The position numbers were made by a program, and so were the translations under genes. A DNA stretch of 36,342 nt from Neocallimastix lanati (nom. inval.) (lineage: Eukaryota; Neocallimastigomycota; Neocallimastigomycetes; Neocallimastigales; Neocallimastigaceae), in NCBI GenBank assembly GCA_016946835.1, contig JACVTC010000371.1, forward strand, positions 1 through 36,342, written 5' to 3'. Under the pieces are notes generated by a model. That model ran no database searches. It saw only the letters and a program-made list of their open reading frames with translations, and was not told the DNA's origin. This document shows, one piece after another, positions 1,302 through 20,481 of this stretch. Each line of letters begins with the position of its first letter. Within the stretch, counting starts at the first letter, position 1.

Positions 1302-1769
1302 TGTAACAAATCTTAATGTTACTTAAGATTGTTATAAGGTTTTTTTACACAAAAGGTTCTCGACACTAAAGTAATTCAAAATATGTTTTATTAAAATAAG
1401 TTTTTTTTATTAGTAAAAATATAAATTATTATTTTATTAATTAATCATTGTAATATTTTAAATTACTTTAAAATTAATTAATAAAAGCACAAGTAAAAAT
1501 ATTTTATTATGAAATTTTACACCTATTTATAGTTTTTCAGGAAAATTAATTATTTTAAGTTATCAGTTGTTATTAGTAATTATTAGAAATAAAAGAAAAT
1601 TAAAGAAAATTAAAGAAAACAAGTTTTCTTTCTAGAAAATGAATCTTAGATAAAAAATGATAAAAAATATTAATAAAATAGATTTTTCTAGTTTTATCGG
1701 TTCAATTGTTTAACCGATAAACACTAGTAATTTCTTTAATATTCTAGTTATAATAAATAAAAAGTTATT

Positions 1770-1773
1770 AAAA
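1770..1773 (-). terminator. Candidate Pol III terminator of tRNA-like module
   Basis: TTTT on the minus strand, 3 nt after position 73 of the tRNA-like module, with TTTTT at 1759-1763 as a second run. T runs are common here, so this counts only together with the A and B boxes. Confidence 0.35.
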
Positions 1774-1775
1774 TT

Positions 1776-1848
1776 TGTAAAGAGTGGGTGTCGAACCCTA
1801 AGGGTTCAGCCCGATGGTTATGGTAACTTACCATTGAACCATATTTAC
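1776..1848 (-). other. tRNA-like module with A box and B box (73 nt)
   Basis: The minus strand has an A-box match TGGTTCAATGG at tRNA positions 8-18 and a full B-box match GGTTCGACACC at positions 52-62, in the spacing of a 73-nt tRNA gene. The ends pair as an acceptor stem (GTAAATA with TCTTTAC, 6 of 7) with discriminator A. A TTTT run follows 3 nt later (plus 1770-1773) and TTTTT at 1759-1763. D, anticodon and part of the T stem do not pair in cloverleaf fashion. Instead the 5' half folds as GGTT/AACC plus ATGGTAA/TTACCAT. It is therefore a tRNA mimic or degenerate tRNA rather than a usable tRNA. The TATG-tagged Ty3 train begins exactly 17 bp upstream of its first base. Confidence 0.65.
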
Positions 1849-1860
1849 TAATTTACTAGT

Positions 1861-1864
1861 TATG
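1861..1864. repeat. TATG target duplication, copy 1
   Basis: TATG directly before the TGATAAAG start of element 1. The same four bases recur after element 1 (10753-10756), after LTR X (11781-11784), before element 2 (12997-13000) and after element 2 (35975-35978). It lies 13-16 bp upstream of the first base of the tRNA-like module. Confidence 0.85.
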
Positions 1865-2893
1865 TGATAAAGAATGAAGTAATAAATTGATTCTTATTAA
1901 AAACCTTTTAATATAGTCAATGTGATTTTTAAAATATTAATAAATTTATGTATTCTTTACATTAATAATTTTACTATATTATTTGATCTGAAAATTTAAG
2001 TTTATACATAAAATTTAATTTAAATTTATGTTCATTCCTTATAAAGGTAAATTAAATTTATGAGAGTTTAGCAATAACATAGTACTAATTACTTTTAGTA
2101 TTATTTTTCTAAATAAGGAATAATTCCTGTATATAAACAACTTAAATAACTTTATCAATATTTCTGTCTTTCGAATTAAGAAATAATTGAAATGAAAGAA
2201 ATAAATAAAATAAAATTTTCTGTATTTAAAATTGTAAAAGATTTTTCATATATTAATAAATGTATTTTATTTTCTATTATGTCATTCAAATTAATATATA
2301 AGATTACATATTAAATTAGTATCAAAATTAAGTTAAAGTATTCAATTTTATTGTAATACTGCTTCTCTTTTTTTTGTTTAATTCTTATCTATAATGCATC
2401 TTTTATATTATAGATTTATTTTGGTTAATTTGAATATTAGGAAATAATAAAATTTCTATTTATTACAATAAGGAAATAATCAATAAGATTTAAAAATCTA
2501 TTGTTTTTCCATCTCTTCAACTACTTCCAGAGGCTTTGCTACTATTATATCTTCAAAAAGATATAAATTGACTACCTTGGAACCCCTTTTTAGGGGAGAG
2601 AAAAAAAAAAAGAAAATAAAAATAGAAATAATAAAAATAAATAAATAAAAAAAAAATAAATAAAAATAAATAAAAATAATAATAAAAATAAAATAAAAAT
2701 AAAATAAATAAATAAAAATAATAATAAAAATAAAATAAAAATAAAATAAATAAATAAAAATAATAATAAAAATAAAATAAAATTAAAATAAAAATATAAT
2801 AAATAAATAAAAATTATTGTGAAAGAATAAAATTTTTTTTTTTGTGTTTTAATATTATATAATTTTTTTTTTTGAATTCCTCGAACCATAACA
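1865..2893 (+). repeat. 5' LTR of element 1 (1029 bp)
   Basis: Starts TGATAAAG and ends ATAACA. It begins with an inverted repeat TAAAGAAT (1868-1875) / ATTCTTTA (1952-1959). CCCC TTTTTA GGGG (about 2583-2596) forms a short hairpin, followed by about 220 bp of A-rich sequence with a 42-bp period (AAAAT/AAAT blocks, about three copies). No ORF here is credible; the Phe-rich reverse reading frame at 2590-2952 is a by-product of that repeat. Confidence 0.93.
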
Positions 2894-2900
2894 TAAAGTT

Positions 2901-2918
2901 TGGTGGAGATATCGGGGA
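2901..2918 (+). promoter_or_regulatory. Primer binding site of element 1
   Basis: TGGTGGAGATATCGGGGA begins 7 nt after the LTR. TGG is the complement of a tRNA CCA end; the rest implies a tRNA 3' end of TATCTCC, discriminator A, CCA. The tRNA could not be identified; Leu-type acceptors of the form GGAGA would fit. Element 2 has the same site. Confidence 0.8.
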
Positions 2919-2965
2919 TTTCAAAATTAAAAACTAATATTAAAACATACACAATAATTTTATTT

Positions 2966-3013
<48 letters not shown>

Positions 3014-3806
3014 TTTTTACAATAATATAGAAATATAATATATACATAAATAAATATTAATAATTTAAAGTAGCACCTACGTCCTTACTATATTAGTTGG
3101 ATAAATAATTTCATTCAACAAAGTTGTTATATTTCTGTTTGTGCAAGAGAAACAGTGTGATATAAAACTTTGAAATATTTATTCCTGTCAAGTACTAATT
3201 AGTAAGAATAATAATTTAATTATATTATACATTTATTCATTAATATAAGAATACTTTTATACAATTTATAACTTATTGTAATCGGCGGCTGTTGGATGAA
3301 AAACTCCTTAGCTTAAGGCTTTGTTACAATTAAGTGTATATAGTAATTCGTATTTATATTATCGACTAAATTATATTATAATTGAAATTATAAATTCAAA
3401 TTTATAAATATATACATATATATAGTATCTATACATTGATACCAAGACTGTTGATATATATAGATATAAAAATTAGACGTTTATATTAGAGAATAGGAGA
3501 AGGATTGCTTTACACATAGGGAGGTAGTAGAGCATTATTGAATAAGGTTTAGTGATACAAGTGATAACAGAATAGAAAAAGTGGTAAGGTCCCGTGTTCG
3601 TACAGGCACACACTACTCTGTTATATTCACTATTCTGACGGTTCAATAGTGGAGGTCGAACGGCCCTGTAAAGAATCTGCGGATCCGAAAATAATATAAA
3701 GCTAATAATATATATATAAGAAATATTTATAAATTTTCCATATTAATTTTTTTTAATTTAGCAATTAATTTATTCCGTGCTACATATAAGAAATTCTAGT
3801 GTACTG

Positions 3807-3849
<43 letters not shown>

Positions 3850-4449
3850 TTGTTTACTGTTCTTACTCTGTGGTTAAGTGAAATTGAGCCAAAGAAGAAA
3901 GACTACTATATTTTTTTTTACTACCTGTTTAATTTGGTTGTCGAGGTGTATCTTGAACCAAATAATTATCATTATAAGTGGTCGAAGTGTCATTCGAGCT
4001 TATAACCTTAATATAATTATATCTTCTATTGGTGATCGAAAGATATTCGAACCAATAATATAAAATTTCCTTAGGTGGTCGAGTGTTATTCGAACCTAAA
4101 AATATATTTCTTGTAGGTGGTCGAAGTGTATTTCGAACCTCATATAAATAACTATAAAGATATAATTTAATAAACAATAATTATAAAATATTTTAATCTT
4201 GGATATCAAAATAAAACAAAACAAAAAAACAAAAACAAAAACAAAAACAAAAACAAAAACAAAAAAAAAAAACAAAAAAAAAAAAAAAAAAAAACAAAAA
4301 AAAAAAAAAAAAAAAAATTTTACTTATTTTTTTTTATCTCTGAAGTGTTTGTAAACTTACCTATTTTTTTTTCTAATCTCTGAAGTGTTTGTAAACTTAT
4401 AAATTCTAATACTATATTATATATATCTATAACATACTCACACACACAA

Positions 4450-4486
<37 letters not shown>

Positions 4487-4544
4487 TATTATTTTTATTT
4501 TGAATATTTTACCTATATTACTGTATAATTTCTACTCAAGAAAT
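2919..4544 (+). other. Untranslated leader of element 1
   Basis: No gene. It holds four long A tracts (about 2971-3009, 3813-3845, 4261-4317, 4452-4482), a CAAAAA repeat (about 4214-4262), a GC-richer stretch at about 3580-3690, and a 40-bp direct repeat of ATCTCTGAAGTGTTTGTAAA (starting about 4336 and 4376). A set of five related stem-loops at 3934-4140 is listed separately. The long homopolymers are assembly-sensitive, so the exact leader length is uncertain. Confidence 0.7.
3934..4140 (+). repeat. Array of five TCGAA/TTCGA stem-loops in leader of element 1
   Basis: Five short stem-loops at 3934-3961, 3972-4005, 4028-4056, 4071-4099 and 4115-4140, each built as GGT.GTCGA(A)...TTCGAACC. Flanking bases change together and keep pairing: TTATAAG/CTTATAA in the second, ATTGGT/ACCAAT in the third, TTAGGT/ACCTAA in the fourth. 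This is compensatory change between repeat units and suggests a selected RNA structure, such as a packaging or dimer signal. That role is inference. Confidence 0.65.
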
Positions 4545-5504
4545 ATGGCTTCAGTTACTAATGATACTACTAATGTTCCTTCATTTAAAGATCTTAAAAA
4601 GGAACTAAAATATGTTGATAAATTAAACAAGGACCATTTGGATATAAAATCTTGGGCTTCTGAAATTGAGTTATGGATCCAATTACAAAATATCACTGAT
4701 CCAAAAACTATTTTTGTTGCTTGCCTATTAACGTCTACTGGTGAACCAAGACAAATTATCCAAGAATTAGAACTACCTGCTACTACAGCAGAAGAAGATG
4801 TAGAATTGAATGGTTCCACTGATACTGGTGAGATGTCAGGATCTAGCACCAGTAGCTCTACTAGTTCAAGTAGTTCTAGTAATGATAGTGTTAGAACTAA
4901 CCGTTATCCTTCTTTTGTCGAGATCGTCAACGCTCTTGAAGTATTCTATGGGGCAAAGGAAGATCAGAATACCTTATTAAGAGAATTGCGTGCTCTTAAA
5001 ATTGGTAGAAATGAAAAAGTAAGGGATTTTAATAAAAGATATCGGACATTATATTTAAAATTAGATAAAACTCACAAAAAACAAATCAGTATCTTGGACT
5101 ATGCTGATGCACTTGAGAATAATATTGAGGCCTGGAAAAGAGTAACTTTAATTGATGATATACCACTTTCAAAGGCTTATGAAATTGCAGAAAAAGTGGA
5201 TAGACTTGCTGTGAGGTTACATCGTGTACCAAGTCCTAATAGAAATGTTTCCAACAATAATAATAATAATTATAATAAGAGTCGTAGTTCACCACCAAGA
5301 AATACTTATGAAAACAGGGACAATAGGAAAGTTTCTGATGAAAGTGAAAGGGAGAACCTTACACGTGGACCAAGAAACTCTACCGTCAAAACCTGTTTCT
5401 TCTGTAAGGAACCTGGACATTATCAACAACATTGTCCCAAACTACAAGCCATTATAGAAGAAAATAAGAAACTGATTTTTTCCAAAGGACCTTTAAACCA
5501 GTAG
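4545..5504 (+). CDS. gag: Gag of element 1 (capsid and nucleocapsid)
   Basis: A 319-residue Gag starting at the first ATG (4545, MASVTNDT). The frame is open further upstream to about 4500 but has no earlier ATG. The N-terminal half resembles element 2 Gag in the stretches around SWASEIELW and LLRELRALKI, a capsid-type retrotransposon Gag region. After a Ser-rich linker and a basic Asn-rich stretch, one CCHC zinc knuckle (CFFCKEPGHYQQHC) near the C-terminus would bind genomic RNA. Gag assembles virus-like particles in the cytoplasm. The ORF ends TTA AAC CAG TAG; the heptamer just before the stop is the frameshift site feeding pol. It overlaps the pol frame by about 36 nt. Confidence 0.9.
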   Translation: MASVTNDTTNVPSFKDLKKELKYVDKLNKDHLDIKSWASEIELWIQLQNITDPKTIFVACLLTSTGEPRQIIQELELPATTAEEDVELNGSTDTGEMSGSSTSSSTSSSSSSNDSVRTNRYPSFVEIVNALEVFYGAKEDQNTLLRELRALKIGRNEKVRDFNKRYRTLYLKLDKTHKKQISILDYADALENNIEAWKRVTLIDDIPLSKAYEIAEKVDRLAVRLHRVPSPNRNVSNNNNNNYNKSRSSPPRNTYENRDNRKVSDESERENLTRGPRNSTVKTCFFCKEPGHYQQHCPKLQAIIEENKKLIFSKGPLNQ

Positions 5505-5524
5505 AAGGGAGAGGAAGCACTCCC
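5492..5524 (+). promoter_or_regulatory. -1 programmed frameshift signal of element 1
   Basis: TTTAAAC (5492-5498) is read in the Gag frame as T TTA AAC, the classic -1 slippery pattern X XXY YYZ. An 8-nt spacer containing the Gag stop follows, then GGGAG (5507-5511), an 8-nt loop and CTCCC (5520-5524). Pol is in the -1 frame and open through this point. Geometry is identical in elements 2 and 3. Confidence 0.85.
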
Positions 5525-8500
5525 ATCAAAAAAATAGCTTCATTAAAATATACTTCCAATTCTTCTGATGCAGAAAGTAAAGACTACAGAGTGGATTATA
5601 CTATCAAAAGTCATGATCAGGTAGGAGAATATTTTGTCGGTGCGGCAAAAAGAAAACTTGATGAAAGTGATGTTGAGTTAGATAATGGAAAAGGAAGGAA
5701 AATTCATAAAAACCTACGTGATAATCCACGACCTATAAACACTCCTGCATTAAGAAAAAGAAAAGAAAGAGAATTGGAAACTGAAGAGGTGATACCTCAT
5801 AAGAAACAGTTGCAAACATCAATAATTATGCAACCAAATATCAATAAAGAAAAGAAAATTGAAAAAGCAATACGTGATAAAGAAAGATTTTTGAAATCTA
5901 GTACTAATTCTAAAGAATTCGAAACTGCATCATCCAGTCAGTCTAATGTAAACTTAATTACTAATAAAGAGGAAATAACTTCAAAAGTTGATAATGTAGA
6001 AGCTCCAAGGGAAATTAACCAAACTAGAGAAAGAAAAAAAGACAAAAATAATAATAATAATACTAGTAATCCTAATAATAGTAACAACGGAACTATTAGA
6101 AAAACCCCAGTCGTAAATGATAATAATAATAATAATACTATTAATATTAATAATAATGAAACTATTATCGATAATAATCATGTAACGAATAATAAAAATA
6201 TATTAAATAAATTAATTAATACAGATGGTATTAATAATAATAATAATAATGATAATAATAATAGTATGAAAATACCTCGGGTAAATCGAATTATTAAAAT
6301 GCTTTCTAATTATAAGGAATATGATGTATGGGATGATTTAAGCAATACCAAGTGTAATATTACCTTTGGACAGCTTTGGAATGCTGCGCCTAAAATAAGA
6401 AGTCAAGTTTCCCAAGGTTTAAAACTAGAAAAAGCCACCACTAATGTTGTTGGCGCTATTAATAATGTAGTTGCTACTACAACATTAGTTAATAATGTTG
6501 ATCATAACTATAAAAGTAAAAGTACAGAAATAACAGAGGAGGATATTGCAATGGTAGATGCCTCTGTTGATGGTGTATCTGGAAAATTACTTATTGATAC
6601 GTGTAGTAATTTAAATATTATGTCACAAAAATATTATAATTCTCTACCATACCAATATACCGCTGTTGGTCATAGTTGTGGTAGAATAATGCTTGCCACT
6701 AGAGACGATGAATACTCTGAAGGAATAGTCGTTAGGATACCTGTGAAAATTAATGAGCTTTCATTGTTAATTGATTTCCGAATTGTAGAAAAAGAGGAAC
6801 CATTTTATGACATGCTAATTAATTTAAAAACTATAGTTGATAATAGATTATTTATTAATCCCTTAAATAATTGCTTATGTAAATATAACATGGATGGTAC
6901 TATCAGTTCTATTACACCAATAAATAATTCTGCAATTGACGAAAAATATATTTGTAGTGTTAACAAATTACTTGAGGATAATAGTAAGGAAAAATATGCT
7001 GGTGGGGAATTAAAGAAATTAGAAGGATTACCACCTATGGAATATATACATAATACAATATTTATGAATACTCTAAATGAAAAATATAGAACTGATATAA
7101 TACACCTATTAGAGGACAATATAGAAATTGTTGCTACGTCGTCTGAGGAATTAACACCATCATTGCTTTCACCACACAAAATAAATCTAAAAGCTGGTAC
7201 CAAACCTATAAAACAAAGAGCTTATCGGCTAACAAAATTAAAGACAGATATTTTAAAGGAAGAATTAACTAAGTTAATTAATAAAAAGTTAATTGAGCCT
7301 TCAAATTCTGAATGGTCTTCGCCTATTGTTCTAGTACCAAAGCCTAATGGGAAATGGCGTATGTGTGTAGATTATAGGAAGGTTAATGACTCTACTATAA
7401 AGGATTCTTATTCTATACCATACATTGATGAAATTTTTGATAGTCTCAATGGTGCAACTATCTTCACTACCATTGACTTATACTCTGGATATCACCAAAT
7501 TTTAATGGAGGAAGAAAGTATTGGTATAACAACTTTCACCACTAAGTTTGGTAACTACCAATTTAAAGTTATGCCATTTGGTCTAACCAACGCTCCTGCA
7601 ACCTTTCAAAGAGAAATGAATAGAATCCTATTTCCTTTAATAGGAAAGTGTGTTTATAATTTTATCGATGATATACTTATATACTCTAAAACAGTTGAAG
7701 AACACCTCCAACATATTCAACAAGTTTTATCCATACTCAAAGAAAATAGATTAAAACTTAATATTGAAAAGTGTCACTTCATGAAAACAGAAGTGAATGT
7801 TTTGGGGCATAGATTAACCACTAAAGGCTTAAAACCTCTTGATAGTAAAATCGAGGTTATCAGAGATTGGAAATCCCCTCAGGACATCCATGAATTACGT
7901 TCATTTTTAGGAGCTGTTGGATACTATAGAAATTTCATCGATAAATATTCACAAATTACTGCGTGTTTGTGTAAATTATTAAGGAAAGGTGTGAAGTATG
8001 TTTGGACTAGTGAACACCAAAAATCGTTTGAAGTACTGAAAGAAAAACTAATAAATGCACCCATATTAAGTTTCCCTCAGTTTGATAAAGAATTTATTAT
8101 ACGTACCGATGCTTCTTATGATGGAATAGGAGGTGTGTTATTACAAAAAGATAATGAAACTGGAAAAGAACACCCTATTCACTTTATTAGTAGAAGTTTG
8201 ACCAGAGCAGAAAAGCATTATGGTATAACGGACCTAGAAGGTGCTGCCCTATATTATTGTATAACTAAATTAAAACCGTATATAGATGGAAATCCAATAC
8301 CAACTATTGTATATACGGACCATAAACCGTTACTAGGGTTGTTCAAAAATAAGGAACCACATAATGCAAGGCAAACTAGATGGTGTTTGACAGCTAGTAT
8401 GCTTGGTGTAGACATTAGATATGAAACCGGTAAAAAGAATGTGCTTGCTGATGCCCTATCCCGAATGAAAAATAATAAAGAAAATGTAGTTTTAGCTACG

Positions 8501-9700
8501 AAAATAATTAACCATGATATTACGAATGATGAAAATGAAGCCTTATTATCCAAAGTAATACATGATTTTATCAATGAAAAATTCACCACTATTGATGGTA
8601 TTGACTACTTTATTGATGGTAACAATTATAGAAAATTAGTAACCGATCTTAATGAAAGAATAAAATTAATATTAGAGGCTCATAATATTGGACACGATGG
8701 TTATTATAAGACTTATCAACGTTTACGTAAGAGTTATTATTGGAACGACATGGTGAATGATGTTAAACGTGTTGTCAGTAAGTGTGAAAAATGTCAATTA
8801 AATCGACCACAACCTTATCCAGAGCCTACAGAAAATCTACCTACTAAAGTGGAAGGACCTTTTGTACATCTTGGTTTGGACATTATCGGTCCACTGGTTA
8901 AAACTAGAAGTAATAATCAATATATAATAGTAGCTGTTGATTATTTCACTAAGTGGGTAGAAGCAGAACCGACTGAAAATATCACTTCTAAAGATGTAAT
9001 TAAGTTCCTTATTAACGTATTTTCTCGTCATGGAGTTCCCCAAATAATTACCACCGATACTGGTGCCCAATTTACATCAGATATGACTAAAATATTTTTA
9101 GATCTATATGATGTATATATAAAATTTGTTACAACATATCATCCCGAATCTAATGGACTTACGGAAAATCGTAATAAAGAAATTGGTAAACTCCTTAGAT
9201 TGCTTGGGACGAAAAATAAAGATTGGGATGAGGTATTACCCTCTGCTCTCTGGGCTTTAAGAACTGTTAAAAATAGTACCACTAACCATTCTAGTTTTGA
9301 ATTAGTTTATGGTCGTGAAGACCAACAACCTTTTGATATAGCTGCAAGACCGACTAAAGGTATAAATAAATCTTCTGATGAAATTCTATTGGAAAAGTTT
9401 ATATCTCATTATAGATGGACCATAGAAGCATCAGAAAATGTGAAAAATGCAAATAAATATTGGGCTGTTAGACGAGAAGAAAAACAAAGTATGAATCAGG
9501 CTAAGGAAATCAAGGAGGGAGATTTAGTCCTAGTTAGAAACTTTAGTAGAACTAAACTAGAACCTTATTTTAATGGACCTTTAAAAGTAATCAAGAAAAA
9601 GTTTAATACAGTTACGTTAGCTGATCCAAATTCAGGAATATTATTAAATCGGAATGTACACCTCAAAAATATAGTAAAATATAACTCAGCTACAATATAG
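5498..9700 (+). CDS. pol: Pol of element 1: protease, RT, RNase H, integrase
   Basis: About 1400 residues entered by -1 frameshift at 5498; there is no early ATG, so it should be made as Gag-Pol. An N-terminal 250-residue Lys/Asn-rich linker precedes an aspartic protease whose triad is D-T-C (gat at 6596) rather than DTG. RT has LVPKPNGKWRMCVDYRKVN and FIDD (7661-7672). RNase H shows RTDASYDG (Asp at 8108) and YTDHK (8318). Integrase has the HHCC zinc module (His 8681 and 8693, Cys 8783 and 8792) and the D,D(35)E triad: GLDIIGP (8879), TTDTGAQF (9056), TENRN (9164). A GPY-type module (EPYFNGPLKV) follows and there is no chromodomain. The usual Asn after the second Asp is Thr here; element 2 keeps Asn. 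The frame is intact. Confidence 0.93.
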   Translation, partial: PVEGRGSTPIKKIASLKYTSNSSDAESKDYRVDYTIKSHDQVGEYFVGAAKRKLDESDVELDNGKGRKIHKNLRDNPRPINTPALRKRKERELETEEVIPHKKQLQTSIIMQPNINKEKKIEKAIRDKERFLKSSTNSKEFETASSSQSNVNLITNKEEITSKVDNVEAPREINQTRERKKDKNNNNNTSNPNNSNNGTIRKTPVVNDNNNNNTININNNETIIDNNHVTNNKNILNKLINTDGINNNNNNDNNNSMKIPRVNRIIKMLSNYKEYDVWDDLSNTKCNITFGQLWNAAPKIRSQVSQGLKLEKATTNVVGAINNVVATTTLVNNVDHNYKSKSTEITEEDIAMVDASVDGVSGKLLIDTCSNLNIMSQKYYNSLPYQYTAVGHSCGRIMLATRDDEYSEGIVVRIPVKINELSLLIDFRIVEKEEPFYDMLINLKTIVDNRLFINPLNNCLCKYNMDGTISSITPINNSAIDEKYICSVNKLLEDNSKEKYAGGELKKLEGLPPMEYIHNTIFMNTLNEKYRTDIIHLLEDNIEIVATSSEELTPSLLSPHKINLKAGTKPIKQRAYRLTKLKTDILKEELTKLINKKLIEPSNSEWSSPIVLVPKPNGKWRMCVDYRKVNDSTIKDSYSIPYIDEIFDSLNGATIFTTIDLYSGYHQILMEEESIGITTFTTKFGNYQFKVMPFGLTNAPATFQREMNRILFPLIGKCVYNFIDDILIYSKTVEEHLQHIQQVLSILKENRLKLNIEKCHFMKTEVNVLGHRLTTKGLKPLDSKIEVIRDWKSPQDIHELRSFLGAVGYYRNFIDKYSQITACLCKLLRKGVKYVWTSEHQKSFEVLKEKLINAPILSFPQFDKEFIIRTDASYDGIGGVLLQKDNETGKEHPIHFISRSLTRAEKHYGITDLEGAALYYCITKLKPYIDGNPIPTIVYTDHKPLLGLFKNKEPHNARQTRWCLTASMLGVDIRYETGKKNVLADALSRMKNNKENVVLATKIINHDITNDENEALLSKVIHDFINEKFTTIDGIDYFIDGNNYRKLVTDLNERIKLILEAHNIGHDGYYKTYQRLRKSYYWNDMVNDVKRVVSKCEKCQLNRPQPYPEPTENLPTKVEGPFVHLGLDIIGPLVKTRSNNQYIIVAVDYFTKWVEAEPTENITSKDVIKFLINVFSRHGVPQIITTDTGAQFTSDMTKIFLDLYDVYIKFVTTYHPESNGLTENRNKEIGKLLRLLGTKNKDWDEVLPSALWALRTVKNSTTNHSSFELVYGREDQQPFDIAARPTKGINKSSDEILLEKFISHYRWTIEASENVKNANKYWAVRREEKQSMNQAKEIKEGDLVLVRNFSRTKLEPYFNGPLKVIKKKFNTVTLADPNSGILLNRNVHLKNIVKYNSATI

Positions 9701-9710
9701 CTTGAGTCTT

Positions 9711-9723
9711 AGCGGGGGCATCA
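9711..9723 (+). promoter_or_regulatory. Polypurine tract of element 1
   Basis: AGCGGGGGCATCA between the pol stop (9698-9700) and the 3' LTR start TGATAAAG at 9724. GGGGGCATC is shared with elements 2 and 3. Several non-purine bases stand between the G run and the LTR, unlike most polypurine tracts. Confidence 0.75.
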
Positions 9724-10752
9724 TGATAAAGAATGAAGTAATAAATTGATTCTTATTAAAAACCTTTTAATATAGTCAATGTGATTTTTAAAATATTAAT
9801 AAATTTATGTATTCTTTACATTAATAATTTTACTATATTATTTGATCTGAAAATTTAAGTTTATACATAAAATTTAATTTAAATTTATGTTCATTCCTTA
9901 TAAAGGTAAATTAAATTTATGAGAGTTTAGCAATAACATAGTACTAATTACTTTTAGTATTATTTTTCTAAATAAGGAATAATTCCTGTATATAAACAAC
10001 TTAAATAACTTTATCAATATTTCTGTCTTTCGAATTAAGAAATAATTGAAATGAAAGAAATAAATAAAATAAAATTTTCTGTATTTAAAATTGTAAAAGA
10101 TTTTTCATATATTAATAAATGTATTTTATTTTCTATTATGTCATTCAAATTAATATATAAGATTACATATTAAATTAGTATCAAAATTAAGTTAAAGTAT
10201 TCAATTTTATTGTAATACTGCTTCTCTTTTTTTTGTTTAATTCTTATCTATAATGCATCTTTTATATTATAGATTTATTTTGGTTAATTTGAATATTAGG
10301 AAATAATAAAATTTCTATTTATTACAATAAGGAAATAATCAATAAGATTTAAAAATCTATTGTTTTTCCATCTCTTCAACTACTTCCAGAGGCTTTGCTA
10401 CTATTATATCTTCAAAAAGATATAAATTGACTACCTTGGAACCCCTTTTTAGGGGAGAGAAAAAAAAAAAGAAAATAAAAATAGAAATAATAAAAATAAA
10501 TAAATAAAAAAAAAATAAATAAAAATAAATAAAAATAATAATAAAAATAAAATAAAAATAAAATAAATAAATAAAAATAATAATAAAAATAAAATAAAAA
10601 TAAAATAAATAAATAAAAATAATAATAAAAATAAAATAAAAATTAAAATAAAAATATAATAAATAAATAAAAATTATTGTGAAAGAATAAAATTTTTTTT
10701 TTGTGTTTTAATATTATATAATTTTTTTTTTTGAATTCCTCGAACCATAACA
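9724..10752 (+). repeat. 3' LTR of element 1 (1029 bp)
   Basis: Matches 1865-2893 throughout by eye, except one extra A in the A-rich tract and one fewer T in the T run near 10692-10701. It ends ATAACA at 10752 and is followed by TATG. Confidence 0.93.
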
Positions 10753-10756: not shown

Positions 10757-11780
10757 TGATAAAGAATGAATTAATAACCTTTATTTTATTATTAATAATT
10801 CTTTACTAAATTGTACTTTCCTATATTCTTCATAACCTAAACCTCATTGTAAATTTAATTTATTTTGATATAAATTAATTTTAACTTGTAAATAATGTAA
10901 ATAAATTTTAATTAATTACTTTATTGTTATATTATTAAATATATGTATATATTAAAATACAATTATAAATATTAAAATTATACTTTTAAGATACTAAATT
11001 ATTAAAACTATTAATTAAATATTATTATAAAAATTATTATAAAATTATTAAAATTATTAATTAAATATTATTCTAAAAATTATTATAAATTATTAATATT
11101 ATAAAATTATTTAAAATTATTAAATATTATTATAAAAATTTATATATTATAACTATTAAATATTATTATAAAATTATTAAGATTATTAATTAAATTTATT
11201 ATTAAAAATTATTATTAAAAATTTTTACTTATTATAAAAATTACTATTTAAATATTATCAAATTTATTAATTAAATATTATAAAAATTTTATTTTATTTT
11301 GAAAATAATTACAAGTATTATTTAAAATAATTAAAGATTATTAAATTTATTATATTAATCTTTAAAAACAATTTATTTAACTTAAAAATATCAAAGAAAA
11401 TAGTAAAAACTATTTTCTATATATTTATTTTATAATTATTTTTAATTAAATTATATTTGAATATTATATTATTATATTTATAAAAATTAAAACAAAAATG
11501 AATTATTGATATAAAATTAATTCAATAATTCTATAAAATTACTTAAATTATAAACAATTAATTATACTTTAAATTTATAAAAAAATATAAATATTGTAAC
11601 AATTTCTTAAAAATTAAATATGTGTACTTTAAATAAAAAAAAAAAAAACTTTTATATTAATAAAAAAAATAAATAATTTTTAATAAAGAAAGATTTATTT
11701 TTTTTTAAAATCAAAGCAGGGTAATACCCGTCCCCCCCTGCTTGATTTTAAATATCTAAGTGTCAACCCCGAGTCTACCA
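10757..11780 (+). mobile_element. Solo LTR X (1024 bp)
   Basis: Begins TGATAAAGAATG like element 1 but diverges soon after, and ends GTCTACCA directly before TATG. An inverted repeat TAAAGAAT (10760-10767) / ATTCTTTA (10798-10805) opens it, as in element 1. A strong hairpin AAAATCAAAGCAGGG / CCCCTGCTTGATTTT lies at 11707-11749. No coding sequence, primer site or purine tract is present, so it is read as a solo LTR of a related Ty3-type family left after LTR-LTR recombination. Outer edges rest on the TATG copies and TG...CA ends. Confidence 0.7.
11707..11749 (+). repeat. C-rich hairpin in LTR X
   Basis: AAAATCAAAGCAGGG (11707-11721) pairs with its near-complement ending CTTGATTTT (to 11749) across a short loop that contains part of a seven-C run. 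In otherwise very AT-rich DNA this is the strongest GC-containing stem in the LTR. A role as a transcription end or RNA structure is possible but unproven. Confidence 0.55.
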
Positions 11781-11784: not shown

Positions 11785-12466
11785 TGTGTAATAATCTATT
11801 TATAATATACTAACTATAACTAGATTATTAATATTTTAAGATATAAAAATTTATACTTAACTTTATATAGAGTTTATTATAAACACTAAATATTGAAATA
11901 AACAAAAAGACTTTATTTTCTTTTAATTTATTATATAGCATTATATAATAATAACTCTAATTTCTTTAATCAAAGAAATTTGAGTTCTTTTATACTTTTT
12001 TATTTATAATTATTTTAATAGATGAAATTATTAAATAGATGTAATTATTAAATAAATAAAATAGATAAGATAAAGTTAACAAATCAAATAAAGGTATCTA
12101 ATCTTAACAAATTGATATTCAGGAAAAGATTAGTAGAAAAACCTGAATAACTTCGATTAATATTCTAATATATTAATCATCGAATTAATTAATAAAAACC
12201 CAATCATAATAATATTGGGGAAAAAATTAATTAACCGATTGCTAAAATCTTATAAATTATCAACTAATTGAAATAATAAAATATAAATAATATTTTTAAG
12301 TAATTAATACATTACAACAAATTTGTTTACATTATTTTTCAATATATTAATTTGGATAAATTAATATATTTTTTACATGTTAATAAATATTGAAATATAA
12401 ATGAAATATAAATTAATTAAATAAGAAGATAGATTATTTTATAAGAAATAAATCTATATTCTTACA
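11785..12466 (+). mobile_element. Solo LTR Z (about 682 bp)
   Basis: Begins TGTGTAATAATC after TATG and ends near CTTACA before AATG and the next LTR start. A perfect 10-bp inverted repeat TAATAATCTA (11789-11798) / TAGATTATTA (11821-11830) stands at the start, in the same place as the unrelated-sequence repeats of LTRs X, Y and element 1. No coding remains. The right boundary is uncertain by one or two bases because the duplication there is AATG rather than TATG. Confidence 0.55.
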
Positions 12467-12469: not shown

Positions 12470-12996
12470 TGATAAAGAATAGAATAATAATGATATTTTT
12501 AATTAAATTTTTAATAATTTATTATATAAAAATATATTATTATATTCTTTACTATTAATAATTTTCTTATATTCTATATTAATAATTTTTATATTAATTA
12601 TATTTTATTATTTTAAATATTAAATTTATGTAATTAATTAATTTATGTGATTGGTTTTAATAATGTAATTAAATAATATAAAATATGTATTATCCATATT
12701 ATTTTATGAAGGGGGCCTTTCTGAGAAAAGAAATAGTAGAAATAGTAGTGATAATGAAATAGGAATAATAATTGAAAGGTTTTCCATATTGTTATTAAAA
12801 TAAATATTAATATTAATAAAGTTATTTTTAACAATAAAATAATTATATAATTTATAAATAATAAATATTTTTAATAATAGTTCTTTGAAATAAATTTATA
12901 ATGTGTAATGATAAATTCTTTTAGTGTAATTTAATAGTTATTTAATTTATCTATTTATTTAATGTTCACACTCCTTTTCTAATATGAACCTCAACA
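12470..12996 (+). mobile_element. Solo LTR Y (527 bp)
   Basis: Begins TGATAAAGAATAG and ends GAACCTCAACA before TATG; compare the GAACCATAACA end of element 1 and GAACCATACCA of element 2. The opening inverted repeat is TAAAGAAT (12473-12480) / ATTCTTTA (12544-12551). No internal sequence is present. The reverse reading frame at 12643-12834 is low-complexity and not a gene. Confidence 0.68.
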
Positions 12997-13000: not shown

Positions 13001-13789
13001 TAATACAGAATGAACAAATAATACTAATTGTGCTAGAATAATATAAATTATTCTAACCTTATAGATTATTCTATTCTATATAATTGGAACTTTCCAATAT
13101 TCTTCAAATATTACTAAATAAAAATCTTAAGTTAATAAATCACTAATTAACTTATAATTCCTTTTTGAATTATCGATCCGATTCCATTATAATGTATTAA
13201 AAATCTTTAGCCAAGAATATTGTCCTTGCCCACTTAATATATTAATATTATATTTCTTTTGTATTATGTTATATTGAAAATAATCAAATCTATTTAATTA
13301 GTTATTAAAATTTTCGTTATCAATTTAAATTTATTTTTAATTACTAAATTTAACTAAACCACAATAAAATATTCTGTATAATCTCTTTATTTTTATTTTA
13401 TATATATTAGTATTAAACTATTATTAAATAATTAATAATTCAATAATATATAACTACTATTTATAACAATAATATTATTAACTAAAATAATAATTCAATT
13501 TCAATTTAAATGTTTTATTTATAAAAATAATTAGTAATTAGTTTATTAAAAAAATAGTTAGGCTTTACAAATTTTAATTTGATAAAAAAATATAAATACA
13601 TGTAATTTTAGTGAAATAAAATATAATCAATAACTTTCTTTTTATTAAATAAATAATTATATTATTATTTTTCTTTTATAAATTTAAATAAATAAATATT
13701 GATTTTAAAACAAATTATTTTTTTTTTATTGTAATTTTATTATTTGTGTTAATTATTATTATATTCCTAAAATTATATGAACCATACCA
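13001..13789 (+). repeat. 5' LTR of element 2 (789 bp)
   Basis: Starts TAATACAG and ends ATACCA. Both LTRs start TA, not TG, so the change predates or accompanied this insertion. It differs from the 3' copy only in about the last 90 bp by eye. Confidence 0.9.
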
Positions 13790-13797
13790 TGAAAAAT

Positions 13798-13814
13798 TGG
13801 TGGAGATATCGGGG
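13798..13814 (+). promoter_or_regulatory. Primer binding site of element 2
   Basis: TGGTGGAGATATCGGGG, identical to the site of element 1 and 8 nt after the LTR. Same primer tRNA expected. Confidence 0.8.
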
Positions 13815-14297
13815 AATATAATAATAAATTAATACATTGGGGATAAAATTATAATATTAATAAATAATTTTTCTAATAAAACAAATATTTTTTTAAAAAA
13901 TAAAACAATTTTTATATTTTTAACTAATTATTATTAATTGTTAAAAATATTAATTAATATTAAATTAAACTAATATTTGTGCATAGATTTCCTGGTTAAG
14001 TTTATCCTACATAGTAATTGGGCTAGTAGGCTCTGGACTGCTATTTTTTATATTGAAAATAGTAACCGTGGCACACGCGTGGCATGACACCTTTCAAGAG
14101 GTAAGCTGCACGTCAGACAGTGTGTACTATCAGATTGCACGATTATTATAATTTAATAAGTGATTAATAATAATAAATAATTAATAATTTTATTAGTTAA
14201 AAGATTTATTTTTTTTAATTTTTTTTTATTTTTACTTTTTATAACAATTTATACATTACGAGGTTTAGCATTCTATAGATACAATAAATTTTATTTA
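13815..14297 (+). other. Untranslated leader of element 2
   Basis: No gene. An AT-rich first part is followed by a GC-richer block at about 13979-14146, which includes the stem CTATTTT/AAAATAG (14041-14062) and a GTGGCACACGCGTGGCATGACAC stretch that could fold. It lacks the A tracts and the TTCGA stem-loop array of element 1. Confidence 0.6.
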
Positions 14298-15215
14298 ATG
14301 AGAACATCCAGTACTTCCAGTACTCCAACAGAGAGTACTCCAGAAAGTAAGCTTAGCTTCCGAGAATTAAAGAAAGAATTAAAAGATTTTGAAAAGCTTA
14401 CTAAACAAAACCTAGACATCAATTCCTGGACAAACGAGTTAAAGGCATGGATAAAATACCAACATATCAAGGATCCTGAAACTATTTTTATTGCTTGTAT
14501 ATTAACGGCTTCTGGAGAACCAAGAGAAATTATCCAAGAACTAGAAGATGGAAATGACCTTACTGAAGATGAAGATTCTGATTTCGATAGCGATAGTGAA
14601 GGAGAAAATGATGAAGAAAGTGAATCTACTAGCACCTACCCAAGCCTTGATGAAATCATAAATCATCTGAAGACTTTCTATGGACTTAAAGAAGATCAAA
14701 CCAATTTGTTACGAGAATTACGTTCCATGAAAATAAAGAAGAACGAGAAAGTTAAAGATTTTAATGTCCGTTATAGATCTTTGTACCATAAATTGGATAA
14801 AAAGAGAAGAAGAAAAATTAGTGTTTTAGATTATGCAGATTCCTTAACCAATAATCCTGACGCATGGAGAAAGGTTATGCTTAAAGACCATATTTCTATT
14901 ACCAAAGCGTTCGCTATAGCCGAAAAAGTTGATCGTTTATCTATTAAAAATAGTACTGAATATTATGATAAGACTCATTACAATCTCCTTAACTCTAAAA
15001 GTAATTTTAATAAGAACATTTCAAATGATTTTAACAAACCAAAAACCCACAAAAATGTATCTATAGAAAATATCACTAACAAGATGAAAGAAATGAAAAT
15101 TAGTACTTGCTGGTTTTGTAGCAATGAAGGACATACCAAACGAAACTGTCCTAAATTAAATTCTATATTGGAAAATAACCGCAAGAAGTTTTATGAAAAT
15201 TATTTAAACCACTAA
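14298..15215 (+). CDS. gag: Gag of element 2 (capsid and nucleocapsid)
   Basis: 305 residues from the ATG at 14298. It resembles element 1 Gag in the stretches around SFRELKKELKDFEKL and LLRELRSMKI, with an acidic Glu/Asp/Ser linker between the two capsid-like parts. One CCHC knuckle (CWFCSNEGHTKRNC) lies near the C-terminus. The frame is intact even though the pol of this element is broken. It ends TTA AAC CAC TAA, so the T TTA AAC shift site lies two codons before the stop, as in element 1. Confidence 0.9.
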   Translation: MRTSSTSSTPTESTPESKLSFRELKKELKDFEKLTKQNLDINSWTNELKAWIKYQHIKDPETIFIACILTASGEPREIIQELEDGNDLTEDEDSDFDSDSEGENDEESESTSTYPSLDEIINHLKTFYGLKEDQTNLLRELRSMKIKKNEKVKDFNVRYRSLYHKLDKKRRRKISVLDYADSLTNNPDAWRKVMLKDHISITKAFAIAEKVDRLSIKNSTEYYDKTHYNLLNSKSNFNKNISNDFNKPKTHKNVSIENITNKMKEMKISTCWFCSNEGHTKRNCPKLNSILENNRKKFYENYLNH

Positions 15216-15235
15216 AAGGGAGTAGAAGCACTCCC
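15203..15235 (+). promoter_or_regulatory. -1 programmed frameshift signal of element 2
   Basis: TTTAAAC at 15203-15209 in the Gag frame, an 8-nt spacer with the Gag stop, then GGGAGT (15218-15223) and ACTCCC (15230-15235). The pol frame is open from the slip point. Confidence 0.85.
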
Positions 15236-16513
15236 ATCGTCAAAAAAATTGCTTCAGTCTGCCATCGTCCCAAAACAGTTAACTTAAAAGAAGATGATGA
15301 TTATGAAGAAATTGCTGATTTCCAAGAAGGTACTACTACGGATTATTACGAAGATTTTGATGATGAGTCGGATGGTTCCAAAGAATTGGATTACTTAGTA
15401 AACGTTATAAAGAGAAAGGCAAATCCTAAAGATGAAGAGACTAGTGACCAAAGAGGAAAGAGGGTTCACCGTAGTCTAAGAGATGATCCTAAGCCAATAG
15501 TTACTCCAGGTTTACGAAAACAAAAAGAAAATAAATTAAGGGGAACATCGCGACCAGTCAAAAAGCCAACAACTCATTTACATCCTTCGATTATAGCTCA
15601 ACCCAGAATAGAGAAAGAAAAGAGGATTGAGAAAGAGCTAAGAGATAAGGAAAGAGCTAGTACTAGTACTTCTGTGGAAAATAATAAAAATAGTAATGTT
15701 AATATTATTAATGAAGAAACTTCTCAGGAAGGAAATAATTCTAAACAAACTTTAAATAAATTAATTCAAGAAAAATCATCAGAAAAGTCAACTGAAATTA
15801 TGACAACTAGAATTCCAAAAAGAATACAAATGCAAACTGATTGTGAGAGTTATGACGTGATCAAAGATTTAAACTCCAGTAATTGCAATATTACATTTGG
15901 ACAATTATTGGACGTTGCTCCAAAGATACGGTCTCAAGTATCACAAGGACTTAAATTAGAAAAGAATAATACTAAAATTTCAGGTGCAGTGGATAATATG
16001 TGTGCTACTACAATAATAACGAACAATATAGATCATACATATAAAAGTAAACATCATGAACCACAAGAAGATGATATTGCTATGGTTGATGTAATAGTAG
16101 ATGGAGTTCGTGGTAAGGCTTTAATAGATTCATGTAGCAATTTAAGTATTATCACAAAGCAATTTTTAGATAAATTAACTTATCAGTATGAACCTATAGG
16201 AGTTAGTGCAGGACGAATACGTTTAGCAACGATGAATGATGATTACTCAGAAGATGTGTTAATCAAAGTTCCCGTAAAAATTAATGAACTAGAACTACTT
16301 GTTACGTGTAGAATTATAGACAAGGAGGATCCATTCTATGATATATTAATCAACCTCAAAACTCAAATTGATAACCAGTTATTTATACATCCAATTAGAT
16401 ATAGTCTTTGTCGATTTAATGATCAAGGTTTAATTGAAGAAATTGCACCTATTAATAATGAATATGATGACGAAGAAAAATTATTATGTGTAATCAAAGC
16501 ATTGAATCACTAA
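15209..16513 (+). pseudogene. pol: Pol of element 2, linker and protease part, ends at in-frame TAA
   Basis: From the slip point the -1 frame encodes a Lys/Glu-rich linker like that of element 1, then an aspartic protease with triad D-S-C (16127-16135, LIDSCSNLSII) in place of DSG. The frame stops at TAA 16511-16513 after VIKALNH. The same frame continues at once with sequence matching element 1 (EGLPPIKY against EGLPPMEY), so this is a single nonsense codon and not a normal protein end. RT and integrase would not be made unless the stop is read through. Nothing around it suggests programmed readthrough. Confidence 0.85.
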
Positions 16514-19068
16514 GAAGCTAAGCAACAATTGAAAACGATTGAAGGATTACCACCCATAAAATATATATATGACAGAGTTTTTCAAAGTACAATTAATTCA
16601 AATTATAGAGAAGCTATTACTAAATTACTTGAAGAATATATTGATATAATTGCAACTTCTTCTGAAGAATTAACACCTTCAGATTTATCACCACACAAAA
16701 TTATTCTTAAGGAAGGAGTTAAACCTATTAAACAAAAATTTTATCGACTTAGTAAATTAAAAACAGATATCTTAAAAGAAGAATTAACCAAACTCATATA
16801 TAAACGATTAATTGAACCTTCATGTTCAGAATGGTCATCACCAGTAGTACTTGTGCCTAAAAAGAACGGTAAATGGCGCCTGTGTATTGACTATAGGAAA
16901 GTAAATGAAGCAACTAAGAAGGATTCTTATTCTTTACCAAATATTGAGGAAATTTTTGATAGCTTAGATGGAGCAAAAATCTTCTCAACATTAGATCTTT
17001 ATTCCGGTTATCATCAAATATTAATGGATGATGATAGTGTTGAAATCACTACCTTTACAACTAAGTTCGGAAACTACCAATTCAAGGTAATGCCCTTCGG
17101 TTTAACAGGTGCTCCAGCTACATTCCAAAGAGAAATGAACCGTATACTATTTCCCTTAGTAGGAAAATGCGTCTATAACTTTATCGATGATATTTTAATC
17201 TACTCAAGAACTGAAGAAGAACATCTAGAACATCTTAAACAAGTCTTAGAAATATTCAAGGAACATAAGTTAAAAATCAATATTGAAAAATGTTCTTTCA
17301 TGCAAACTGAAGTAGAAGTACTTGGACATAAAGTATCCTCAGAAGGTTTAAGTCCATTGGAAAACAAAGTTGAAGCTATTAAAGAATGGAAGGCTCCCTC
17401 TAACATTCATGAACTTCGATCATTTTTAGGAGCCATTGGATATTATAGAAATTTTATTAAGGACTTTGCAAAAGTTACTGCTCCTCTCTGCACTCTATTA
17501 AGAAAAGGTATTAAGTTTGAATGGAAAAAGGAACAAGAAGAAAGTTTTAAAATTCTTAAGGAAAGATTAATCAATGCCCCAATATTAAGATTTCCTAGAT
17601 TTGATAGAGAATTTATTATAAGAACAGATGCTTCCTATGATGGAATAGGCCTTGTGCTTTTACAAAAGGATGATGAAACCGGAAAGGAGCATCCGGTTTA
17701 TTATATTAGTAGAAGTTTATCTAAATCGGAAAAGAATTATGGAATTACGGATCTAGAAGGTGCTGCTCTAATTTACTGTATTAATAAATTAAAATCTTAT
17801 ATTATGGGAAATCCTAAGCAAACTATAGTATATACAGATCATAGACCATTAATCGGATTACTTAAAAGTAAGGAACCACAAAATTCTCGTCATACTAGAT
17901 GGTGTTTGACTGTCAGTATGTTAGGAATTGATTTACGATATGAAACTGGAAAGAATAATGTTGTCGCAGATGCTTTATCAAGAATGAAAAATGAAAAAGA
18001 AATAGTTGTCTTAACAACACAAATTATCAAGGAACAAGATGAAAACCTGCTTTCAAGAACCATTAAGGAATTTATTGAAGAAAAATTTACGACAATTGAT
18101 GGTGTGGACTACTTTGTTGATGGCAATAATTATAGAAAATTAGTTACAGATACAAAAGAAAAACTTCAATTAATTTTTCAAGCACACAGTATAGGACACG
18201 AAGGCTATTACAAGACATACCAACGTTTGAAAAAGAGCTACTATTGGAACAATATGGTTAATGACATTAAGCGAATTATAAGTAAATGTGAAAAATGTCA
18301 ATTAAATAAATCTCAACCATACCCTGAACCAACGGAAGATAAACCAACTGAAGTGGAAGGACCATTTACACACTTAGGATTGGACATTATAGGACCTCTA
18401 AGTAAAACCAGAAATAATAATCAATATATAATCGTTGTGGTTGATTATTTTACTAAATGGGTTGAGGCAGAGCCCACTGAAAATGTTACTTCTCAGGATG
18501 TGATAAAATTTTTAATTAATGTATTTGCTCGACACGGTGTACCTCAAATTATCACTACTGATAATGGAACACAATTTACATCAGATATGACAAAAATCTT
18601 CCTTGATTTATATGATGTATATGTTAAATTTATCACTCCATATCATCCTGAAAGCAATGGTTTAGTTGAGAATCGTAATAAAGAAATTGGAAAATTATTA
18701 CGATTACTAGGACAACAACACAAAGAATGGGATGAAATTTTACCATCTGCACTTTGGGCTTTAAGAACTACTAAAAACTCAATCACCAACCATTCAAGTT
18801 TTGAATTAGTTTATGGAAGGGAGGACCAACAACCTTTTGACATTGCTGCCAGACCAACTAAGGGTATAAATAAGTCTTCTGACGAAATTCTACTGGAAAA
18901 ATTTGTATCACACTACCAATGGGTAATGGAGGCCGCATCTAATATCAAAAATGCTTCGAAATATTGGGCTACTAGGAGAGAAGAAAAGACCAGTATGAAT
19001 CAAGCTAAAAGAATAAAACCAGGTGATTTAGTACTAGTAAGAAATTTTAATCGAACTAAATTAGAACC
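16514..19068 (+). pseudogene. pol: Pol of element 2, RT, RNase H and integrase part, cut by element 4
   Basis: Same frame as the upstream part. RT has LVPKKNGKWRLCIDYRKVN and FIDD (17180-17191). RNase H has RTDASYDG and YTDHR. Integrase has AHSIGHEG, CEKCQ, GLDIIGP, TTDNGTQF and VENRN, so the HHCC and D,D(35)E residues are present. The real sequence stops at TKLEP (19068), where element 4 begins. The open frame runs on for about 29 codons into element 4 LTR and that tail is meaningless. The missing C-terminus is at 35031-35172. Confidence 0.9.
19064..19068. repeat. Target duplication GAACC, left copy (element 4)
   Basis: GAACC here and at 35026-35030 flank element 4. Merging them restores the frame of element 2 pol at the GPY module. 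Confidence 0.88.
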
Positions 19069-19543
19069 TATAACAAAATATTATAATAAATATAATAACA
19101 CTCAAAAAAAACAAAAATTATTTTATTTTTTATTTATTTTTTTTCTTTTATTATAATTATTTTATTAATTATATTTATTATAATACTATAAGCCGCAAGG
19201 GTTGATATAGTATTAATATTAAAAAAAGTTTTATTAAAAAATTAAGTTTTATTAACTAAACAAAATTAAAATAAAAAACACAAAGAAAAGAATATTTGTT
19301 AATAAGAATTTTACTCATATTTATATTTTTTTCAAAAGTTAAAGTTATTAAAAAATAAAAATAAAAGTTTCTAAAAAGTTCTTAAAAATCGAAAAATTTA
19401 GAAAAAATAGAAAACAATAATAGAATTAAGAATTTAATAGAATAAATTTTAATTAATTAAACACAAGAATTATCAAGAAATTCTAGTAATTTCTTGAACT
19501 ATAAAGAATCTTCTAGATATTTTTTAGAATAAAACTATAAAAT

Positions 19544-19616
19544 AATAATAAATGTGAATCGAACCCTAAGTAGTTTGATTCACGGTATTAGTTACTAACA
19601 ACTATACCAGAAATAA
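19544..19616 (-). other. tRNA-like module inside the element 4 3' LTR
   Basis: The minus strand has an A-box match TGGTATAGTTG and a near B box GGTTCGATTCA, with the same 51-nt span from TGG to TTCGA as the module at 1776-1848. A TTTT run follows two bases after position 73 (plus 19539-19542). Folding favours two hairpins, GGTAT.AGTT/AACT.ATACC and GTGAATC/GATTCAC, over a cloverleaf; acceptor ends do not pair. Element 3 begins 17 bp upstream of its first base. Confidence 0.6.
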
Positions 19617-19628
19617 TATTTTTTAAAC

Positions 19629-19632
19629 TTAA
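19629..19632. repeat. Target duplication TTAA, left copy (element 3)
   Basis: TTAA here and at 28749-28752 flank element 3. The uninterrupted LTR copy has a single TTAA at 34942-34945. Confidence 0.85.
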
Positions 19633-20247
19633 TGATGCATGTCCAGTAAAAATAATAGAAAATAATAGAAAAATTATTTAGAAAAATTATTAATATAAAT
19701 ATTTATTAAAAATTAATTTTATATAATGAATCTTAAAATATATTATTAATATATTATTAAAGATAATTTATTATTATTAATTATTAAAATATTAAATTAA
19801 ATAATAATATTAAAAATATTAAAAGAATTGTTGATAATATAGTAAAATTAGTTATATTAATTATAACGGAGATTGAATGTTTAATTAAATTGATGTTAAT
19901 ATTAAAATAATTTTTAAATAATGTTAAACAAGATGAATTAATAGTTATAAGTAAAAAGTTATGAATATTTATATTTATTAATTAATTTTAGTGTTTCGAT
20001 AAATAAAATTTATAAAATTAGTAAAAAATATAATTATGAAAATAATTTATAAATAAATATTTTCTTTTTTTTTAAGGAATAATAATAAAACATGTATTTT
20101 TTTTATGATAAAATATAATAAATAAAATAATAAAAGATAAATAAATAAAAAGTAAATATAATTATTGTAATATAATATTCTTGGAGTAATTCCCTTTTGC
20201 ACAAACGCCCAACTAACATATACGGTATTTAATAAAATATCGTATCA
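19633..20247 (+). repeat. 5' LTR of element 3 (615 bp)
   Basis: Starts TGATGCATG and ends CGTATCA. It appears identical to 28134-28748. No ORF. Confidence 0.95.
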
Positions 20248-20251
20248 AAAA

Positions 20252-20269
20252 TGGTGGAGAATCCGGGCG
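20252..20269 (+). promoter_or_regulatory. Primer binding site of element 3
   Basis: TGGTGGAGAATCCGGGCG, 4 nt after the LTR. It shares TGGTGGAGA with elements 1 and 2 and then differs, implying a different tRNA or isoacceptor with 3' end ATTCTCC, A, CCA. Confidence 0.8.
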
Positions 20270-20397: not shown

Positions 20398-20449
<52 letters not shown>

Positions 20450-20481
20450 GCCTAAAATTATTATGATTATTATTAAATAAT

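Follow-up and report, generated by a model that had tools for sequence, protein, structure and literature searches.

The insertions of three Ty3/gypsy-type retrotransposons (elements 1, 2 and 3) and of other LTR families in the genome of the anaerobic gut fungus Neocallimastix lanati are, very probably, best explained by Ty3-like targeting to assembled RNA polymerase III (Pol III) promoters, including tRNA-like modules carried in the LTRs of other retrotransposons. True tRNA genes and LTR modules are shared targets of these elements. The stretch of DNA analyzed here, hereafter the window, is contig C303 (36,342 bp), and the genome searched comprises 199 Mb in 762 contigs.

Nested elements and tRNA-like modules of the window

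The window consists of nested LTR retrotransposons (Table 1). Its outermost sequence appears to be copia-type, based on a minus-strand Pfam RVT_2 match at the right end (E 2.5e-5, below the curated cut-off) and on inspection by eye at the left end. A solo LTR of family M lies within this copia-like coding sequence, and its outer ends (1317 and 35991) show no clear target duplication by eye. It begins with TGTTACTTAAG at 1317 and reads CTAGTTATG at 1856; elsewhere, M copies without interruption run on from there as TTATGAGTTTCGTTACA. Family M is assigned to the chromoviruses because a pol end coding for an integrase and a chromodomain (Pfam PF00385, E 1.4e-17) adjoins the LTR, on its upstream side, in the M copy L003.

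Table 1. Features of the window (positions in bp; base 1 is the predicted first base of a module).
Feature	Position	Strand	Remarks
Solo LTR, chromovirus family M	1317..1864	-	Carries tRNA-like module 1
M solo LTR, last 12 bp	35979-35990		AGTTTCGTTACA; past the stacked insertions
Module 1, tRNA-like A/B	1776..1848	-	A box from 1841, B box from 1797, base 1 = 1848
Target site TATG	1861..1864		Repeats at 10753-10756, 11781-11784, 12997-13000 and 35975-35978; ATG at 12467-12469
Element 1, Ty3/gypsy-type	1865..10752	+	LTRs 1865-2893 and 9724-10752
Solo LTR, family d	10757..11780	+	Same TATG target site as element 1
Further solo LTR	11785..12466	+	Same TATG target site; start uncertain by 2 bp
Element-1-like solo LTR	12470..12996	+	Same TATG target site
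Element 2, Ty3/gypsy-type	13001..35974	+	Interrupted by element 4
Element 4, chromovirus	19069..35025	-	GAACC at both flanks; modules 2 and 3 in its LTRs
Module 2, tRNA-like, element 4 left LTR	19544..19616	-	A box from 19609, B box from 19565
Element 3, Ty3/gypsy-type	19633..28748	+	TTAA at both flanks; 16 bp beyond base 1 of module 2
Module 3, tRNA-like, element 4 right LTR	34857..34929	-	Uninterrupted copy

Elements 1, 2 and 3 code for reverse transcriptase (RT), RNase H and integrase in the Ty3/gypsy order (Pfam). No chromodomain was matched by Pfam in elements 1 and 3, and the frame scanned in element 2 stops where element 4 interrupts it. For element 1, the top match among solved structures is Ty3 itself (7q5b, E 2e-100), and the relatives of its pol include two proteins, 49% and 56% identical, with the name code Orpsp1_1, which we take to be the JGI code for Orpinomyces sp. 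C1A, an anaerobic gut fungus. No relatives from viral contigs were found for element 1 or element 4. The latter retains an intact reading frame of 1460 aa (28843-33225) with a Ty3-type capsid, RT, RNase H, integrase and chromodomain (Pfam); its left LTR is split by element 3, and its right LTR represents the empty site. The window looks like a near-duplicate, either a haplotig or a segmental copy, of a region of contig C749 near 778 kb, with which it has the examined flank and the element-1 insertion in common.

Module 1 consists, on the minus strand, of an A box (TGGTTCAATGG at 1841) and a B box (GGTTCGACAC at 1797) spaced by 44 nt, and its base 1 was set by counting 7 nt back from the A box. 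A scan of both strands for strict A/B-box pairs at tRNA spacing detected three in the window (1841, 19609 and 34922), all on the minus strand and all with a spacing of 44, and none in 100 dinucleotide shuffles. A relaxed B box returned the same three pairs, against 0.02 per shuffle. A and B boxes at tRNA spacing are a feature of type-2 Pol III promoters, and all three modules lie inside LTRs, one in the solo M LTR and two in the LTR pair of element 4. Module 1 is tRNA-like in its boxes, and by the tools used it is not a tRNA gene: ARAGORN called none of the modules a tRNA, Rfam gave none of them a match at E<=1, and modules 1 and 2 did not fold as a cloverleaf, so that the modules were rejected as tRNA genes or Rfam RNAs. 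An acceptor-like pairing seen in module 1 of the window was likewise dismissed, being missing from the other M copy that was folded (L010). The fold obtained for modules 1 and 2 is a pair of strong hairpins, the first at one box and the second at the other (z -3.5 and -4.2 vs. shuffles). In the module found at locus L178, a perfect stem, longer still than those of modules 1 and 2, surrounds the B box.

At least three LTR families carry an A/B module with tRNA spacing, namely M and E4, the family of element 4 (both chromoviruses), and M3. The M3 family came to notice at L162, where it is the target of element 3. Its module is similar and folds without the two hairpins of modules 1 and 2; 40 M3 copies were scored from 529 first-look candidates. 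Paired LTRs of M, and likewise of M3, are ~5-7 kb apart. The modules of M, M3, E4 and L178 can be aligned, and many positions invariant across these four module types are A- and B-box letters, while outside the boxes the ungapped identity of the LTRs is mostly 0.2-0.6. Base 1 lies at LTR position 29 in M and M3 and at position 97 in E4. Whole-LTR comparison of the three families by blastn was abandoned as uninformative, AT-rich chance matches swamping the result. Two more tRNA-like A/B modules, unlike those of M, M3 and E4, are used by elements 3 and 2 at L169 and L178, respectively.

A previous sequence-only reading of this DNA had placed element 1 (1865) at an offset of 17 from base 1 of module 1 (1848), with TATG at 1861-1864, and had reported the same distance at 19616/19633, a coincidence that it held to be unlikely by chance; both placements were confirmed, the second insertion being element 3, and 16 bp lie between base 1 and the element in either case. 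The insertion of element 1 at module 1 is one of five in a row between the module and the last 12 bp of the M LTR, namely element 1, three solo LTRs and element 2. TATG is found at five of the six boundaries of this stack and ATG at the remaining one, a record of repeated insertion at one 4-bp site. If newcomers enter next to the module, the nearest member of the stack should be the youngest, and the ages of the two members with paired LTRs fit: element 1, the nearest, whose LTRs align over 1029 bp with no mismatch and 2 gap columns, is younger than element 2, the farthest, with 4 mismatches and 5 gap columns over ~785 bp. The order of nesting agrees with LTR divergence too, as element 4 (1 mismatch and 1 gap column over 645 bp) lies in element 2, and element 3 (identical LTRs over 615 bp) lies in element 4. 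Target duplications are mostly of 4 bp, TATG and TTAA in the window; solo insertions in M copies elsewhere show TATG (L020), TTAT (L023), a possible 5-bp TATGA (L029) and an imperfect TTAA/TTAT (L057). The target duplication of Ty3 is 5 bp, a length from which the mostly 4-bp duplications seen here depart.

Insertion distances across the genome

The exact A-box string of M occurs 72 times in the genome. The loci sampled for M were 30 of the 40 scored matches to a query ending at TATG and the first 30 of the 72 A-box matches; these 60 loci correspond to 49 sites distinct by coordinate, 24 of which are interrupted upstream of the module within ~33 bp and 25 of which are not. If the M site of the window and its near-duplicate on C749 are counted once, 23 of 48 are interrupted. 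In all but one of the 24 cases the interruption lies 12-20 bp from base 1 (six at 16, five at 15, four at 14, three at 17, two at 18, and one each at 12, 19 and 20). The exception, L058, is broken at -5, within the module, and counts against targeting at a fixed upstream distance. The rest of the LTR is rarely hit: the 527 bp on the other side of the module, 22 of which are fixed by the search string, are broken at only 4 of the 49 sites. Since the query ended at TATG, its matches could be biased towards copies intact up to that point; among the 30 loci recovered with the 22-base A-box string alone, 17 are interrupted and 13 are not, and 16 of the 17 interruptions lie at 12-20 bp. Sixteen different LTR ends adjoin the interrupted M sites, which represent at most 14 families because the d ends at L020 and the b ends at L023 are in each case the two ends of one family. 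A solo LTR with both d ends, those of the family d solo LTR of the window, sits at the M module of L020. On C334, an element-1 end and an M module are ~14 bp apart, judging from coordinates alone. No tRNA gene was found by ARAGORN, with no introns allowed, in the 60 M loci (L001-L060), and neighboring ordinary tRNA genes therefore do not explain the M hotspot.

The E4 module, searched as a 29-base pattern with up to 2 mismatches, has 145 matches in the genome. Of the 40 copies examined, 30 are uninterrupted and ten are interrupted; the gap from base 1 is 16 bp in six of the ten, 15 bp in three and 14 bp in one. The invaders are element 2 (in both directions), element 3, families b and f, and others; b, f and elements 2 and 3 are also found at M modules or tRNA genes. 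The LTR start of the element-1-like solo LTR of the window (12470..12996) recurs at the E4 module of L147.

True tRNA genes were examined with LTR ends listed from outside the loci concerned. The sample of loci is not random: 63 of 9278 first-look candidates were scored, and the first 30 of the best-scoring set were taken, all of one tRNA-Arg type with Asn and Thr neighbors. A listed LTR edge lies 10-18 bp upstream of 17 of the 49 distinct tRNA genes, or of 16 of 48 without L101, which had been chosen as an element-1 flank. As for other upstream distances, there is no edge at 0-9 bp, two are at 26 bp (both at tRNA-Thr genes) and none are at 30-79 bp; downstream, no listed edge occurs within 29 bp of the 49 genes. 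Sixteen of the 49 have no listed LTR edge within 300 bp, and by eye an LTR-like end from a family not on the list occupies the same place at some of the remaining genes. One end of element 2 lies 14 bp from a tRNA-Asn gene. Together with the flanks described below, the isotypes with an LTR edge 10-18 bp upstream are eight (Arg, Asn, Thr, Met, Gly, Val, Ser and Trp). Contig C555 contains, at ~170-400 kb, dozens of near-identical tRNA-Arg(TCT) matches, some 0.5-1 kb apart, which form a large tRNA array; in two of the six loci examined there (L085-L090), a listed LTR end lies 14 bp upstream of a tRNA-Arg gene. The tRNA loci of contigs C202, C232 and C409 resemble one another.

The LTR edges of elements 1, 2 and 3 have 169, 526 and 160 matches in the genome, of which 20, 12 and 20 flanks, respectively, were examined from the start of the coordinate-ordered lists, hence not at random; once six 3' LTRs were dropped, 46 of the 52 were usable 5' flanks. 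A tRNA gene, a piece of one or an A/B module lies 13-16 bp away in 12 of the 46. Seven have a tRNA gene called by ARAGORN at 14-16 bp (Gly, Val, Ser, Trp, Ser and Met for element 3, Met for element 1), three have an A/B pair found by script at 14-16 bp, one of which (L179) is a weak Rfam tRNA (31 bits), and two were recognized by eye, L110 with the 5' part of a tRNA-Ser at 14 bp and L178 at 13 bp. A further 27 adjoin, within a few bp, the listed end of another LTR, as in the stack of the window, some of these listed ends having been noticed initially in the very flanks of element 1. Four others abut TG ends that are not on the list, and the last three (L096, L098 and L166) have no Pol III gene and no recognized LTR end. 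Element 1 has an annotated tRNA gene in just one of its 16 usable flanks, a scarcity accounted for if subsequent insertions separated the element from its Pol III gene, as in the window. In L091-L110 and L151-L182, where the type of end is known, the 5' end of elements 1-3 mostly faces the 3' LTR end of the stacked neighbor, L115 and L164 being exceptions. This orientation suggests that newcomers mostly enter with the 5' end directed at the Pol III gene. The sequence-only reading had proposed a plot of the distance from LTR edge to tRNA position 1, in which a sharp peak at 17 bp, at tRNA genes and LTR modules alike, would support targeting; on these samples, the distance is 13-16 bp wherever a tRNA gene or A/B module lies next to the insertion, 12-20 bp at M and 14-16 bp at E4, and the interpretation given in that reading is supported.

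Proposed Pol III targeting and its alternatives

Elements 1-3 and the other LTR families would integrate at the Pol III initiation region, ~13-16 bp upstream of tRNA base 1, where their integrase most likely recognizes the assembled Pol III initiation complex (TFIIIB positioned by TFIIIC at the A/B boxes), as that of Ty3 does. The modules of M, E4 and M3 would assemble the same complex and would thereby turn LTRs into landing pads at the same distance; repeated insertion at one pad would build a stack, each newcomer entering next to the module and adding a further duplicate of the same short site. Binding of Pol III factors to the modules, and contact between integrase and TFIIIB as the guide, are suggested by the distance and by the precedent of Ty3. 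Because Ty3 avoids sites occupied by TFIIIC only, the LTR modules likely assemble TFIIIB and not TFIIIC alone.

Insertion hotspots that reflect the sequence or shape of the DNA at the site (AT-rich, TATG or TTAA), with no part played by Pol III, would account for the site sequence common to all M copies and for the AT-rich target duplications; indeed, the M hotspot taken alone could be sequence-driven because M copies share sequence. However, the sites at M, M3, E4 and tRNA genes differ in sequence, and their common property is the distance to the A box; moreover, the M insertions are spread over 12-20 bp and do not mark one motif. The same distance at dissimilar sequences already disfavors such hotspots, which we consider very unlikely. 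The copying of a few old nested insertions by duplication or recombination, in place of independent targeted events, would leave traces like the near-duplicate on C749 at 778 kb, with its shared insertion and flank, and the similar-looking loci on C202, C232 and C409. As a general account it is likewise very unlikely, given that 16 distinct LTR ends in M vary slightly in position, that E4 copies on separate contigs were hit by several families, and that LTR edges lie 10-18 bp upstream of tRNA genes of eight isotypes.

It is more conceivable, yet doubtful, that the module owes its retention chiefly to a role as a folded RNA structure in the chromovirus transcript and draws the Pol III machinery as a side effect. 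The two hairpins of modules 1 and 2, which fold far better than shuffles, speak for this role; against it, many of the positions invariant in the four module types are A/B-box letters, all three window copies retain the tRNA spacing of 44, and M3 does not share the two-hairpin fold. Starting again from Ty3-like targeting to Pol III promoters, we tentatively raise the possibility that autonomous chromoviruses keep in their LTRs a tRNA mimic that would assemble Pol III initiation factors in vivo and act as a decoy for tRNA-targeted retrotransposons. One lineage would then give another safe landing sites, with the possible effect that tRNA genes are spared or that its own LTR is insulated, and the insertions would footprint TFIIIB on hundreds of LTRs.

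Comparison with known systems

Targeting of tRNA genes by retrotransposons is itself already known from yeasts and dictyostelids. Ty3 inserts immediately 5' of Pol III start sites, at ~12-15 bp upstream of the mature tRNA (PMC5911963, PMC5006619); it requires boxes A and B and is guided by TFIIIB, and TFIIIC-only sites of yeast are not targeted (PMC5911963). Similar targeting has been described in Saccharomyces, Schizosaccharomyces japonicus, Yarrowia, Candida and dictyostelids, the yeast elements of this kind being Tj1, Tyl3, Ylt1, Tyl6 and Beta/Tca8 (PMC5911963, PMC5006619). In the accounts cited, the distances given for Ty3, Tj1 and DGLT-A are similar to those found here. The elements described above resemble Ty3 of S. 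cerevisiae in their Ty3/gypsy gene order and in their insertion just upstream of the Pol III start; they differ from it in their host, an anaerobic gut fungus, in their mostly 4-bp target duplication, in the many families involved at once, and in the use of LTR modules of other retrotransposons as targets. DGLT-A of dictyostelid amoebae is an LTR element without chromodomain that inserts ~15 bp upstream of tRNA genes (PMC5006619). Its hosts are Amoebozoa, and LTR-borne landing pads do not figure in the description of it cited here.

tRNA-like sequences in LTRs also have precedents. The LTRs of Helenus, one of the TRIMp3 elements, carry a tRNA-like sequence with conserved boxes A and B, whereas those of Cassandra carry a 5S-like one (PMC10886601, Kojima 2024); Helenus is reported from rust and some other fungi, animals and one plant, and its author did not conclude on a promoter function without experiments and expected autonomous partners to use Pol II (PMC10886601). 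The M, M3 and E4 modules share with Helenus/TRIMp3 the tRNA-like sequence in the LTR. On the other hand, Helenus/TRIMp3 elements, as described in that source, are short (~0.3-1.3 kb) and non-autonomous, whereas here the module resides in LTRs of full-length chromoviruses (the gag-pol frame of element 4 is intact) and other elements insert at it. The retrotransposition profiling of TRE5-A in Dictyostelium used insertions as a readout of Pol III complexes (PMC5391098); as presented there, it concerns one non-LTR element and extrachromosomal rDNA, whereas the insertions analyzed here are natural ones on retrotransposon LTRs.

In the open-licence literature searched, we found no earlier report of autonomous chromoviruses with tRNA-like modules or of such LTRs as targets, and none on tRNA-gene targeting by retrotransposons in Neocallimastix or other anaerobic fungi. 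What appears to be new is an autonomous chromovirus LTR with a tRNA-like module used as a landing pad by other retrotransposons. These observations extend precise Pol III targeting to an anaerobic gut fungus and to many LTR families at once, and the landing positions provide evidence that LTR tRNA-like sequences can assemble Pol III complexes, a point left open for Helenus in the published account (PMC10886601).
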